Shown here in pieces: positions 47,337-51,038 of a stretch of 64,000 bases of DNA (position 1 is its first letter; each line of letters begins with the position of its first letter). Below the pieces are notes generated by a model, which saw only the letters and a list, made by a program, of their open reading frames with translations, was not told the origin of the DNA and did not search any database. A program made the translations under genes and the position numbers. The stretch comes from Gulosibacter chungangensis. GTDB taxonomy: Bacteria > Actinomycetota > Actinomycetes > Actinomycetales > Microbacteriaceae. Location: NCBI RefSeq assembly GCF_008831155.1, contig NZ_WBKB01000001.1:310001-374000 (forward strand). The letters run 5' to 3'.

Positions 47337-47382
47337 TGAGCTGGGACTAATGAGCTGGGACTAGCGAACTGGTTCTAGCCGG
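47327..47382. repeat. Tandem 14-bp repeat over the end of the 99-residue gene
   Basis: CTGGGACTAGTGAG, CTGGGACTAATGAG, CTGGGACTAGCGAA, then CTGGTTCTAGCCGG. The first unit holds the gene's stop codon (GACTAG). It runs into the end of tadA. Confidence 0.85.
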
Positions 47383-47833
47383 TCCGAAAGAACTCGGTGA
47401 GCGGTTTGGCGCATTCCGCTTCGAGCACGCCACCGATTACCTCGGCACTCAGCGGAAGCCGTCGGTCACGCAGTAAGTCATAGCGTGAACCGGCGGCTCC
47501 CGCTTTTTCATCCCAGGCACCAAATACGACGCGATCGACCCGCGCGGTGAGCGCCGCGCCCGCGCACATCGCGCAGGGCTCCAGCGTTGTCACGAGCGTG
47601 CATCCTTCGAGGCGCGAGCTGCCGATGGCCGCGCAGGCTTGCCGGATCGCCACAATTTCGGCGTGCGCCGTGGGGTCCTGTCGCGCCTCTCGCTCGTTCT
47701 TCCCGCGACCCAGGATGCGCCCGGTTGCGTCGACAACGAGGGCACCGATGGGGATGTCCCCGGTTTGCGGCGCTACTAAGGCCTCGGTGAGCGCAATACG
47801 CATGAGCGCTTCGAGCTCTGGCGGTACTCGCAT
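47375..47833 (-). CDS. tadA: tRNA-specific adenosine deaminase
   Basis: A 152-residue cytidine-deaminase-fold enzyme converting A34 to inosine in tRNA-Arg(ACG), which is itself encoded at 54526-54598. The zinc motifs are TAHAEIVAI and EPCAMCAGAAL. The start ATG is 47831-47833, with a TAGAAT -10 candidate about 15 nt upstream. Confidence 0.94.
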   Translation of the reverse strand: MRVPPELEALMRIALTEALVAPQTGDIPIGALVVDATGRILGRGKNEREARQDPTAHAEIVAIRQACAAIGSSRLEGCTLVTTLEPCAMCAGAALTARVDRVVFGAWDEKAGAAGSRYDLLRDRRLPLSAEVIGGVLEAECAKPLTEFFRTG

Positions 47834-47887
47834 GGGTGACTTTCTGGGATTCTAGGCTTCTGGGAGCTGACTTCCCAATTCTCTCAG

Positions 47888-47903
47888 TACCCTTAGTGTC
47901 ATG
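47888..47903 (+). promoter_or_regulatory. Leaderless promoter of upp
   Basis: TACCCT (47888-47893), 7-nt spacer, ATG at 47901. CTGACT at 47867 could be a -35 box at 15 bp. No ribosome site. Confidence 0.5.
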
Positions 47904-48536
47904 CAGTTGCACGTAGCGAACCACCCGCTCATTGACCACAAGATGACCATCCTTCGCGATGAGCGCACCGAATCCCCCGTCTTCCGTTCGCTCGTTGCCG
48001 AACTCGTGAACCTTCTCACCTACGAAGCCAGCCGCGATCTTCGCGTTCAGGATGTACCGGTCACCACGCCCGTTACCGGGATGGTCGGCAAGCACGTGGC
48101 GAGCCCGCTGCCGATTGCGGTGCCGATTATTCGTGCGGGGCTCGGGATGCTCGACGGCTTCTTGCAGCTCATGCCGTACTGCGAGGTCGGTTTTGTGGGC
48201 ATCCGTCGCAATGAAGACACCCTGCAGCCGGAGACCTACGCAAAGCGACTGCCTGACGATGTCTCCGACCGGCAGTGCTTCGTGCTCGACCCGATGCTCG
48301 CCACCGGCGGTTCGCTCGCCGCGACCGTGCAGTTCTTGCTGGACGGCGGCGCAACCGGAATCACCGCAATCTGCCTGGTCGCAGCCCCCGAAGGCGTCGC
48401 GCTCATGCAGGAACGCTTCCCTGACGACAATGTGCGCGTGGTCGTCGCCGCACTCGACGAGGGGCTCAATGAGCACGGCTATATCGTGCCGGGGCTCGGG
48501 GATGCGGGTGACCGGCTGTACGGTTCGGCCGACTAG
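47901..48536 (+). CDS. upp: Uracil phosphoribosyltransferase
   Basis: A 211-residue type I phosphoribosyltransferase making UMP from uracil and PRPP. Visible are [34 protein letters not shown], and the PRPP motif [18 protein letters not shown] followed by [16 protein letters not shown]. Family length is normal. Confidence 0.96.
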
Positions 48537-48597
48537 TCTTACGGTTCGTCCGACTAGTTGTCACGGGGCGTCACGGGGCGACGCAGAAGGTTAAACC

Positions 48598-48636
48598 TTG
48601 ACATTCTTCGTCACCTCGTGGATGCTGAAGCCTATG
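48598..48636 (+). promoter_or_regulatory. Promoter of the cysteine leader peptide
   Basis: TTGACA (48598-48603), exactly 17 nt, GATGCT (48621-48626), 7 nt, then the ATG of the small ORF. This is the best -35/-10 pair I found in the window and it places the transcript start at the leader's start codon. Confidence 0.7.
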
Positions 48637-48735
48637 ACTGAAACGATTGCTCGCCCTGTGTCCGCCTTTGAGGTGGCAGGTCGTGCCGACATGATGATGG
48701 TCGGCATGATGGCGTGTTGTCGAATGTGCCGCTAA
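48634..48735 (+). CDS. Putative cysteine-sensing leader peptide
   Basis: A 33-residue ORF beginning MTETIARPVSAFEVAG and ending MMACCRMCR, with three of its last six residues cysteine. It begins at the predicted transcription start. Short, leaderless ORFs with cysteine codons at their end are known in actinobacteria as attenuation leaders of sulfur and cysteine genes: ribosome stalling at Cys codons alters the RNA ahead. Here 131 nt separate its stop from the orphan winged-helix gene, with a possible TGCTCA/TGAGCA hairpin (48771-48776, 48795-48800). The role is inferred from the pattern and position. Confidence 0.65.
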   Translation: MTETIARPVSAFEVAGRADMMMVGMMACCRMCR

Positions 48736-48866
48736 TTACGCACCGTTAGCCAATCCCGCCTAATCAGGCTTGCTCATCGCTGGATATCTCCACTTGAGCA
48801 CCCGGGCATCGACGCCCCGCTGACTACGCACAAGTCACCAAAACATCATCACCAAGGATTTTTCTC

Positions 48867-49622
48867 ATGACCTTCTCGAATATTGCACCACTGCCCGCGG
48901 GCAAGCCCGCCGCTTCAAAGGCCGGTCGCCCGAACCTTACTGCTGTGCCGAAGCCCGCGTTCACTGCAGCCGCGCGCACTGCCCGGCCCGAGGCAAAGGA
49001 AGCAGCGGCTCCCGAGGCTCGCGGTTTCGCGCTCTACGTTGGTCTCGACAGCGACGCCTCGGAGCTCGACGGTATTTCGCTGACCGACCTCGTCACCGCC
49101 CTTCGCACCGTCATTGCCGAGCGTGCCCCGCATGCCCAGAGCTACGCATCCGTCGCATTCGCACCGGCCGATGCCCGCGGCGAAAACATTGATCTCGTCC
49201 GCCTGGCGCTCCAGGAACCGGGTGCCGTGCGCGACCGTCGCCAGGCACGTCAGGAAGAGGAGCGTGCCGAGGAAGCCAAGCGCGCATCCGCCAAGGTCAC
49301 GATTGACACCTCGCGCAAGCGCGTTGAGGTGCGCGGCGAGAACGCCGAGTTCACCTATAAAGAGTTCGAACTGCTGCAGGCACTGGTGCTCCGTGAGGGT
49401 CGCACCGTGAGCCGTGAAGAAATCATCGATGTGCTGTGGCGCGACACCACCGAAGAGCGTCCGCACGAGCGCACGATTGACGTGCACGTGCGTCGTCTGC
49501 GTCAGCGCCTCGGCGAGTACGCCGACATCGTCCGCACCGTTCGTGGCGCGGGCTACCGCTTTGACCGTCACGCGGATGTCCGCGTGGTGCACGCCCCGAG
49601 CCCTTCACCGGACCGCGTCTAA
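48867..49622 (+). CDS. Orphan winged-helix (OmpR/PhoB-type) transcriptional regulator
   Basis: A 251-residue protein with no receiver domain. The N-terminus (1-50) is Ala/Pro/Lys-rich and disordered; residues 53-120 form an unidentified small domain (FALYVGLDSDASEL...); a charged helix (about 118-145, QARQEEERAEEAKRAS) follows; the C-terminal winged helix (150-240) has FTYKEFELLQALVLREGRTV, RTIDVHVRRLRQRLGEY and TVRGAGYRF. AAGGA is 8 nt before the ATG. The cysteine leader upstream suggests expression tied to cysteine supply or stress. The target genes are unknown. Confidence 0.82.
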   Translation: MTFSNIAPLPAGKPAASKAGRPNLTAVPKPAFTAAARTARPEAKEAAAPEARGFALYVGLDSDASELDGISLTDLVTALRTVIAERAPHAQSYASVAFAPADARGENIDLVRLALQEPGAVRDRRQARQEEERAEEAKRASAKVTIDTSRKRVEVRGENAEFTYKEFELLQALVLREGRTVSREEIIDVLWRDTTEERPHERTIDVHVRRLRQRLGEYADIVRTVRGAGYRFDRHADVRVVHAPSPSPDRV

Positions 49623-49797
49623 CCTGCGACTGCGACTAGGCCACCTGAGTCTGGCGACCACGAGTCTGCGCGCTGGGTCGGTCACGTTCCGCCGCATGGG
49701 CGCGTGAGGTACTTGCCTTATGCGACTCGCGAGGGATTTGCGCCGAATGCGGGCTGATTCTGCGCGCGGCCGCATCCGCCTCTAAGCCAAGGCGCTT

Positions 49798-49812
49798 TAG
49801 GGTGGGTAGATG
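49798..49812 (+). promoter_or_regulatory. Leaderless promoter of the MarR gene
   Basis: TAGGGT (49798-49803), 6-nt spacer, ATG at 49810. No Shine-Dalgarno. The rest of the 187-bp gap after the winged-helix gene shows nothing recognisable. Confidence 0.5.
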
Positions 49813-50262
49813 GGAAATCGAACTGTCCGGCCGAGTGATGCGTGGGAGTCGTTGTTTCGCGCACAGGTTTCGGTCATGCGAGATCTTCGGGAAGAGTTCA
49901 CCGGGGTAGGTATCTCGATGAATGAGTACGACGTGCTCTTCAACATCTACCGCGCTCCGGACCACCGTCTCCGGCTTCGCGAGCTGAACCGGTCAGTGCT
50001 GATTACGCAGTCCTCAGTATCGCGCCTGGTCGATCGGCTCGTGAGCCGCGGCTTTGTCGAGAAGACCGAGGATGCGACGGATGCGCGAGGCACCATCGTT
50101 CGGCTTACCGAGTCGGGCGTTCGGGCATTTCGCAAGGCCGCCGCAGTCCACACCCGCAACATCAACGACCACATGAGTCGCGCACTCAGCCCGGAGCAGC
50201 AAACACAGCTCCACGAGCTGTGCACGGCGCTGCTGCAGGCGCAGAATAATTACGTCGACTAG
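49810..50262 (+). CDS. MarR-family transcriptional regulator
   Basis: A 150-residue MarR-fold protein: winged helix with LRLRELNRSVLITQSSVSRLVDRLVSRGFVEK and the wing EDATDARGTIVRLTESG. It probably senses a small ligand or oxidant. It is followed 27 bp later by an ArsR-type gene on the same strand. Targets unknown. Confidence 0.87.
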   Translation: MGNRTVRPSDAWESLFRAQVSVMRDLREEFTGVGISMNEYDVLFNIYRAPDHRLRLRELNRSVLITQSSVSRLVDRLVSRGFVEKTEDATDARGTIVRLTESGVRAFRKAAAVHTRNINDHMSRALSPEQQTQLHELCTALLQAQNNYVD

Positions 50263-50289
50263 CGTGCCCGACTTCCACGATCGCGAACG

Positions 50290-50619
50290 ATGAACCCCGC
50301 AGGTTTTGCCTGGCCGGGCCGCCCCGACCGGCCGCCCATCGAAGGTGTGGTTGCGACGGATCTCGCCGCGCGCATCCACGCCCTCGCGGATGGGCACCGG
50401 GTTCGCATCCTGTCGATCATTGCCGCCAAGGATGGCCTGCCGATGACCACGAGCGAGATTGTGGCTGCGCTGGGGCTCTCACAATCGACCGTGTCGCATC
50501 ACCTGAAGCTGCTGGTGAGCGCGGGGCTGCTCACGATGGAGCGGTCCGGTACCTGGCAAATGTATCGGGCGGATGCCGAGGCTCTGCGAGAGCTTACGGC
50601 GCTTCTCGCGCCGGGCTAG
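50290..50619 (+). CDS. ArsR-type HTH regulator
   Basis: A 109-residue winged-helix repressor with ALADGHRVRILSIIAAKDG, the recognition block EIVAALGLSQSTVSHHLKLL and the wing SAGLLTMERSGTWQMYRA. No metal-binding CxC motif of classical ArsR is present, so the ligand may not be a metal. It converges with the DsrE-family gene. Start at the ATG 50290 is plausible but lacks a strong ribosome site. Confidence 0.82.
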   Translation: MNPAGFAWPGRPDRPPIEGVVATDLAARIHALADGHRVRILSIIAAKDGLPMTTSEIVAALGLSQSTVSHHLKLLVSAGLLTMERSGTWQMYRADAEALRELTALLAPG

Positions 50620-50681: not shown

Positions 50682-51038
50682 CTAGCCGCGGATGTACGCC
50701 CAGCCTTCGAACTGACGCTGAGCCGCGTGTGCCGTTGCAGTGGCCGCGAAGTGGACGTCCTCGAGCAAGTCGTCTTCGGAGATCCCGTTTCCGCGGGCCG
50801 CGAGGGAGCACAGCCACACCTGCACGGTCGGTAGCTCCTTGAGCGCCGCAGCGAGGTCAGCTGCCTGCGCAGCAGACCTAGTGGCTCCCGTCACGGCACC
50901 ACCCTGCGCAAGGATGTCGACGCGCACATCATCGCCAAGCGCCGCAATCGCATTGCGGGCTGATGCGGTGGCCATCAGGATGCGGGCAGGGTCGTTGTCG
51001 GCGACGTGGTACACAAATCCGCGGGTGGCGTTGGCCAT
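50682..51038 (-). CDS. DsrE-family protein
   Basis: A 118-residue small protein of the DsrE fold: an N-terminal strand FVYHVADNDPARILMATASA, a central VDILAQGGAV, the conserved cysteine in VQVWLCSLAARGNGISEDDL, and the end RQFEGWAYIRG. DsrE-like proteins handle sulfane sulfur or protein persulfides, though many are of unknown function. It lies beside the ArsR/MarR pair and 2 kb from the cysteine-leader-controlled regulator. GGAG is upstream of the ATG (51036-51038). Confidence 0.77.
   Translation of the reverse strand: MANATRGFVYHVADNDPARILMATASARNAIAALGDDVRVDILAQGGAVTGATRSAAQAADLAAALKELPTVQVWLCSLAARGNGISEDDLLEDVHFAATATAHAAQRQFEGWAYIRG

Follow-up and report, generated by a model that had tools for sequence, protein, structure and literature searches.

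A short reading frame ending in cysteine codons precedes an orphan OmpR-type regulator in Microbacteriaceae: conservation and a candidate role in sulfur scavenging

Amino-acid attenuators usually control genes of one pathway; among them, the leaderless polycysteine short ORFs of mycobacteria, the subject of work by Canestrari et al. in 2020, reportedly control cysteine genes. Passages of PMC13236596 describe translation attenuation of downstream genes by these mycobacterial ORFs, and also present the whiB7/wblC uORF, which precedes a transcription factor in actinobacteria and through which stalling causes induction. Candidate cys leaders of actinobacteria are described, in sections of a 2005 article (BMC Microbiol 2005, PMC1262725), upstream of cys operons in Mycobacterium and in Propionibacterium, as well as upstream of cbs in Bifidobacterium. 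As for DNA binding by OmpR-type proteins, portions of PMC10704036 report that GlnR, an atypical orphan of this type, recognizes head-to-tail half-sites with the arrangement GTnAC-n6-GTnAC.

The locus considered here lies in a 64,000-nucleotide stretch of Gulosibacter chungangensis DNA (the window), and a search of the open-licence PMC literature found no paper on its leader or regulator. On the + strand, a -35 element with a perfect match, TTGACA (48598-48603), is followed after a 17-bp spacer by the -10 element GATGCT (48621-48626) and, 7 nt further on, by the ATG (48634) of a putatively leaderless ORF of 33 codons (48634-48735, encoding MTETIARPVSAFEVAGRADMMMVGMMACCRMCR and then a stop), identified from the sequence and by a leader profile. 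The original prediction spoke of a textbook promoter; the -35 element is perfect, but GATGCT agrees with TATAAT at 3/6 bases only, so that the term is too strong for this single locus, and the promoter is absent from the output of a consensus scan requiring at least 4/6 bases in the -10 element. The proposed start of transcription at the ATG fared better: TTGACA occurs with at least 5/6 bases, 28-42 nt from the leader start, in 133/143 Microbacteriaceae-type leaders, at position -36 or -37 in 122 of those 133, so that the transcript is predicted to begin at, or adjacent to, the leader start codon and the leaderless layout appears to be conserved. Three loci (L025, L028 and L032) have a palindrome, GTGCAAGAAACTTGCAC, that overlaps the -10 element of the leader promoter, and it suggests a second regulator in some genera.

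The last codons of the ORF read TGT TGT CGA ATG TGC CGC (48715-48732, + strand, the putative stall codons), that is Cys-Cys-Arg-Met-Cys-Arg as first described, and place three Cys within the final six codons, compared with a total of six Cys codons over 67 regulator genes. The exact CRMC-type pattern has a single match in this genome, and nine further places differ from it by one mismatch; a second leader-profile match (E 0.027) was discarded as another leader due to its internal stop. An Rfam search of 48500-48900 gave no match up to E 1.

Downstream of the leader, a Shine-Dalgarno sequence, AAGGA (48854-48858, + strand), precedes a regulator gene (48867-49622, + strand) that encodes 251 amino acids, with an N-terminal part containing RGFALYVGLD and an OmpR/PhoB-type winged helix. 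The latter corresponds to PF00486 at residues 157-232, and the Pfam search up to E 1 returned nothing else, including no phosphorylatable receiver domain; the description of a receiver-less OmpR-type protein is upheld. The predicted model of the protein has no strand before residue 144, and the fold-search matches span residues 142-236. The winged helix is nearest to that of GlnR, with 41-42% identity over 88-92 residues.

Regarding distribution, the regulator had a match at E 0.001 in 299/299 sampled family genomes (paralogues counted in) and at 1e-30 or better in 30/31 genomes examined closely, the exception being a 0.9-Mb genome (G015) with no match at 1e-30. The small ORF, whose conservation in relatives had been expected, was found at all of the 30 best orthologous loci, with 26-35 codons, an end made of C-R-M-C plus one or two codons, and a TTG-type -35 element at the leaderless distance. 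The leader profile matched 65/80 family genomes at E 0.1, adjacency to the regulator being checked for individually read loci, and 11/11 genomes of the genus of the window. Among its 15 misses, 11 had a diverged leader by eye (endings such as MMPCSMCMCMCMCR and SCACRRMCCSN), three had the regulator without a leader, and one, G015, lacked the regulator; in one 1.5-Mb genome the leader ends in MPCSMCMCMCMCR. After two spurious leaders (L268 and L279) were dropped from the leader set, a leader is present at 69/80 named loci, which belong to Microbacteriaceae with orthologues in Micrococcaceae.

Outside the family, an order-wide sample of 297 genomes gave a best leader-profile match at E 0.0038, and the N-terminal region of the regulator was clear in two families, f6 (Micrococcaceae-type) and f7, and weak in four more. 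In f6, 7/13 loci carry a leader, with ends such as CCRMQA, CCRMHA, CCCRMQP and RRMPR; in an eighth (L106) the codons are out of frame with a GTG start, and none was seen in the other 5/13. The f7 loci, all from one genus, include 2/6 with Cys leaders containing CGAATG, and none was seen in 4/6. The regulator also stands without a leader at L191, L194, L195 and L196, in genomes of 1.3-1.8 Mb; at L191, L195 and L196 it follows an upp-like reading frame almost directly, the leader being gone, and these three seem to have retained the regulator and dropped its control by cysteine. Some leaders are poor in Cys despite a selection procedure favouring it: G074 has none and eight others have one in the last 14 codons. 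The family-wide counts are not independent, and all are inflated, because the sequences are related. The existence of a conserved control element based on Cys codons is nearly certain. Throughout a family of bacteria from soil and plants, a very small gene with cysteine codons at its end stands in front of a DNA-binding regulator, which a shortage of cysteine probably switches on.

The constraint on the leader was measured on 58 independent leader pairs, and it differs along the ORF. In the last six codons, differences at codon positions 1:2:3 were 20:17:55, and of the codon changes 43 were synonymous and 29 non-synonymous, so the third-position bias that the original prediction called for is found there; the middle codons have a weak third-position excess (78:67:92), and codons 2-17 an even spread (139:158:145), with no coding constraint. 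Clear coding constraint is thus limited to the last six codons, and the body of the peptide seems not to matter.

Within this terminal segment, the arginine codon before Met is near-constant. Among 165 distinct leaders, selected for Arg-Met and Cys close to their ends with seven diverged ones added by hand, so that the counts describe leaders of the Arg-Met/Cys type only, this codon is CGA in 160/162 cases, and both exceptions come from leaders that contain CGA-ATG and bear an additional Arg-Met pair further upstream. In 149/165 leaders, CGA stands fourth from the end. The share of CGA is 15/346 among the other Arg codons of the same leaders and 50/1,664 among the Arg codons of 67 regulator genes; Cys is encoded by TGT 311 times and by TGC 156 times in leaders, and 0 and 6 times, respectively, in the regulator genes. 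Since the Cys codons on either side differ in their third bases while CGA stays fixed, a pure RNA-level motif, TGTCGAATGTG, was partly rejected, and CGA is read as a codon-level, perhaps slow-decoding, feature; the leader would be a natural case of a rare CGA codon under strong selection. The tRNA-Arg that decodes CGA owes its inosine to TadA. The tadA gene (47375-47833, - strand) is near the regulator in 53/80 named loci, and CGA is near-constant in the leaders.

The constancy of CGA-ATG (160/165 leaders) raises the alternative of general stalling, in which the CGA and Arg-Met core senses slow decoding or ribosome-targeting drugs instead of cysteine, like the uORF of whiB7, itself a uORF-controlled regulator in the passages of PMC13236596 already mentioned. 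Leaders with a single Cys, including L186, L190 and L201, would fit this reading; however, Cys codons are kept in 4/5 leaders without CGA (L181, L197, L202 and L203, not L178), Cys recurs in leaders of three families despite otherwise unlike peptides, and the linked operator adjoins sulfur-type genes, as described below. General stalling is therefore held to be improbable, and cysteine is retained as the presumed signal.

Upstream of these codons, the leader RNA contains a hairpin, H1 (48685-48705, + strand), formed by GCCGAC, the loop AUGAUGAUG and GUCGGC, and indicated both by synonymous resampling and by covariation. Real leaders folded better in the H1 region than synonymous resamplings, with a mean z of -1.09 in the family (n=127) and a z of -3.57 at this locus. 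The covariation set comprised 83 distinct sequences in two registers, and changes on both sides of a pair numbered 14 (shuffled maximum 12) in one register and 19 (maximum 10) in the other, with the caveat that registers were assigned on the real data, which favours these; a register-free score was 4.59 of 5 pairs, and the shuffled maximum was 4.35. The run of Met codons coincides with the loop of this covarying hairpin, and its interpretation as a methionine sensor was rejected.

The hairpin also bears on whether the ORF encodes a functional protein rich in Met and Cys, for instance a copper or zinc sensor. The conservation of both residues would suit such a protein, and Cys-motif uORFs sensing copper are known elsewhere; nevertheless, the Met run is accounted for at the RNA level, codons 2-17 carry no coding constraint, and searches of Pfam and NCBIfam with the leader peptide gave no match, which makes a functional small protein very improbable.

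The loop of H1 has a counterpart close to the regulator start: GAUGAUG is complementary to CATCATC (48844-48850, + strand), which ends 3 nt before the Shine-Dalgarno sequence. The core of this motif, ATCATC, is found no more than 36 nt from the start of the regulator at 50/164 loci, with a mean of 1.0 and a maximum of 4 after shuffling; by comparison, it is found within 40 nt of the start of other genes in 6/294 cases and elsewhere in the gaps 5 times in 21,835 nt. Its occurrence follows the leader type, with 43/90 for leaders with MMM, 7/39 for MM and 0/15 for those with no Met run. A second motif, ATTCGA/TTCGAC, complementary to the UGUCGAAU codons, occurs alone within 20 nt of the start at 15 loci, and both motifs occur together in one locus; overall, 65/144 Microbacteriaceae-type loci have either motif and 79/144 have neither. 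In the window, CATCGAC (48807-48813, + strand) is a bulged complement of the stall-codon core, with a duplex z of 0.02 that is not significant at this locus; across loci, core-to-gap complementarity had a mean z of -0.56, and a control stretch -0.03 (n=155). A nested thermodynamic fold, which covers nested pairing and not pseudoknots, gave no average opening of the start site when a ribosome footprint of 30 nt covered the Cys codons (openness 0.485 before and after, n=157); when codons 2-11 were masked instead, openness was slightly lower at 0.453, a paired difference of 0.033 (t 3.28). This fold result and the loci with neither motif speak against start-site pairing. The conservation of the RNA extends beyond the small ORF to the hairpin, CGA and the apparent complements of the ribosome-binding site, and translational attenuation in which leader RNA pairs with the start site is the candidate mechanism with the best support.

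Transcription attenuation was considered as well; in a TnaC-like manner, a stalled ribosome would mask a site downstream of the leader stop at which Rho loads, permitting read-through only when cysteine is short. This would agree with the C-rich gap (C 0.42 and G 0.24 in the first 60 nt after the stop), with the fixed place of CGA fourth from the end in most leaders, with the proposal of Rho for mycobacterial cys leaders in sections of PMC1262725, and with a scan of the + strand from 47500 to 50500 that listed no terminator-like site. Yet the coding sequence of the regulator is equally C-rich (0.43), and the complementary motifs at the ribosome-binding site are left unexplained, so the Rho mechanism is regarded as unlikely and start-site pairing is preferred.

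As for the sulfur context, a DsrE-family gene does lie near the regulator (50682-51038, - strand; PF02635, E 9e-7), as had been pointed out, but no counterpart was found in the 80 named loci, each considered together with flanks of up to 6 kb. The neighbours that recur among these loci are upp (56), tadA (53), proC (37), marR (27) and arsR (2); dsrE and three other neighbours in the window occur in 0/80, and the window neighbours were rejected as partners on these counts. A match to NIR_SIR of any quality was found in 22/80 family genomes, better than 1e-40 in 6/80, and none in 58/80; in the genus of the window it was found in 0/7 genomes, and a link to sulfate reduction was rejected for this genus. 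Given this scarcity, the leader most likely serves the scavenging of reduced or organic sulfur.

The sulfur link rests instead on a tandem operator common to the leader promoter and sulfur-type genes. The candidate operator TGTCACGGGGCGTCAC (48559-48574, + strand) contains two GTCAC boxes, at 48560-48564 and 48570-48574, 10 bp apart, and the pattern YGTCAYNNNNCGTCAY has one match in this 3.24-Mb genome, upstream of the leader promoter. Pairs of GTCA exactly 10 bp apart precede the leader promoter at 25/149 loci, among them the two loci of a third family that bear a leader, with a shuffled mean of 0.3 and a maximum of 1; in the genus, the exact tandem boxes occur at the leader in 1/11 genomes, that of the window. 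Over 12 genomes, the double box had 68 matches and the reversed pattern 1, and metF carries it in 4/12; still, a crude ORF test placed 44/68 matches inside ORFs, so the double box alone is noisy.

Triple boxes were searched for in a wider set of 398 family genomes, where the reversed-pattern control had 22 matches in 7 genomes. They occurred in 39 genomes; once 7 whose matches are simple repeats or satellite repeats of 10 bp had been set aside, 34 places remained, distributed over 32 genomes, and 0/34 were flagged as leader. The neighbouring gene was of a sulfur type at 14/34 places, possibly so at 8 more, and had no evident sulfur role at 12. The first group comprises MsuE FMN reductases (L357, L358, L360 and L362), NtaA/DmoA monooxygenases (L361, L365, L366 and L375), whose substrates may also be nitrogen compounds, MetQ with SfnB (L368), a MetN-like protein (L370), a DszC/SfnB-like protein (L377), MsuE with MsnO8 (L379), MetF (L343) and a mercaptopyruvate-sulfurtransferase-like protein (L356). 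The possible cases are a redoxin adjoining MetI-MetN (L383) and its homologue (L384), sulfonate/nitrate-type ABC ATPases (L386, L387 and L392), TIGR04028-type binding proteins (L376 and L389) and a NirA/sulfite-reductase-type protein (L382); the remaining genes are tkt (L363 and L364), a DUF3043 gene (L372-L374, in the genus of the window), pdxS, a sugar-type binding protein, an SDR, a CMD, an OsmC-like protein and two unassigned ones. Among these assignments, MsuE, MsnO8, two of the NtaA/DmoA and one TIGR04028 were above the curated cut-off, and the others are best hits below it; L380, taken by eye for a methionine synthase, had no Pfam match at 1e-5 and was counted as unassigned. Tandem GTCAY boxes also stand before the DUF3043 gene in five genomes of the genus of the window (L321, L341, L372, L373 and L374), and in another genus (g79) three genomes have them before tkt (L363 and L364; also L326 and L333), a gene that one would not expect beside an operator for sulfur genes.

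The operator shared with sulfur-type genes suggests a sulfur regulon, and the head-to-tail GTnAC half-sites of GlnR make GTCAY tandems plausible for the present protein; that the regulon belongs to this regulator is the weakest link of the argument. The leader could be a Cys attenuator while the boxes belong to another OmpR-type regulator, a relative of GlnR or MtrA, as the closeness of GTnAC-n6-GTnAC (in the portions of PMC10704036 cited above) to GTCAY-n5-GTCAY and the missing box at the leader in 10/11 genus genomes would favour. Against this, most assignable neighbours point to sulfur and not to nitrogen, the NtaA-type and nitrate-type hits being ambiguous, and the box is present at a sixth or so of the leader promoters, those of the third family among them; assignment of the boxes to another regulator is a serious alternative, albeit a doubtful one. 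From the operator beside sulfur-type genes and a DNA-binding domain closest to that of GlnR, a cysteine-gated regulator of sulfur starvation is therefore proposed.

In the proposed mechanism, RNA polymerase would start at the leader ATG and ribosomes would load straight on the 5' end. Given an ample supply of charged tRNA-Cys, translation would run through the leader and the hairpin would re-form behind the ribosome; leader RNA would then pair with the ribosome-binding site of the regulator and keep its level low, here through the AUGAUGAUG loop and CAUCAUC shortly before the Shine-Dalgarno sequence, and in other genera through the UGUUGUCGAAU codons and AUUCGAC between the Shine-Dalgarno sequence and the start codon. 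With cysteine as the signal, a shortage would stall the ribosome on UGU UGU, where the next codon, CGA, may help to hold it, and the stalled ribosome would cover either the hairpin's 3' arm or the codons that take part in the pairing, opening rather than closing the start site. The regulator would then rise, bind the tandem GTCAY boxes and act as an activator, not a repressor, of sulfur-scavenging genes, namely FMN reductases, FMN monooxygenases, methionine and sulfonate-type transporters and MetF, with feedback on its own promoter in some genomes.

Comparison of relatives documents, as sequence patterns, the conservation of the leader, the constraint on its last six codons, the covariation of the hairpin and the constancy of CGA, as well as start-site complements in some loci and boxes at sulfur-type genes and at some leader promoters. 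For the cysteine-responsive regulator originally envisaged, the conserved ORF and the bias in its last six codons are in place, and we infer the response itself. Taken as a whole, the model of a cysteine-gated regulator gene with translational attenuation and activation of sulfur genes through GTCAY boxes is considered moderately probable. A broader reading, somewhat short of an even chance, is that this GlnR-like orphan is a master regulator of sulfur starvation in Microbacteriaceae and Micrococcaceae, its own leader reading cysteine, the main input, by a UGU UGU CGA AUG stall and a loop-to-start contact, and that it governs a GTCAY organosulfur regulon, chiefly in genomes where no sulfite reductase is recognised. 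This would be a possible answer to how sulfur shortage is sensed where most sampled genomes have no such reductase, and a conserved, unnamed regulator gains a candidate role; since attenuation would act on the gene of a transcription regulator, a single switch that reads codons could control a regulon of scattered genes.

In conclusion, the leader resembles the mycobacterial polycysteine ORFs, as far as the passages of PMC13236596 describe them, in its leaderless start (predicted here), its Cys codons and the attenuation (proposed here); the mycobacterial ORFs reportedly control cysteine genes, whereas the present one precedes a DNA-binding regulator and has in addition a Met-run hairpin, a near-constant CGA and a loop-to-start-site complement. 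It shares with the cys leaders in the sections of PMC1262725 a short ORF, Cys codons near the stop and no conserved terminator, but there cys or cbs genes lie downstream and here a regulator gene. The whiB7/wblC system likewise has a uORF before an actinobacterial transcription factor; according to the same passages of PMC13236596, however, ribosome-targeting drugs induce it, and its peptide and regulator family differ from those described here. As for GlnR, the winged helices are similar, and its tandem GTnAC sites, in the portions of PMC10704036 considered, parallel the candidate tandem GTCAY boxes; GlnR carries a receiver-like domain and its targets are nitrogen genes, whereas no receiver was recognised here and the boxes, 10 bp apart, adjoin sulfur-type genes. 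The apparent novelty with respect to known cys leaders is that the gene proposed to be under attenuation encodes a DNA-binding regulator.
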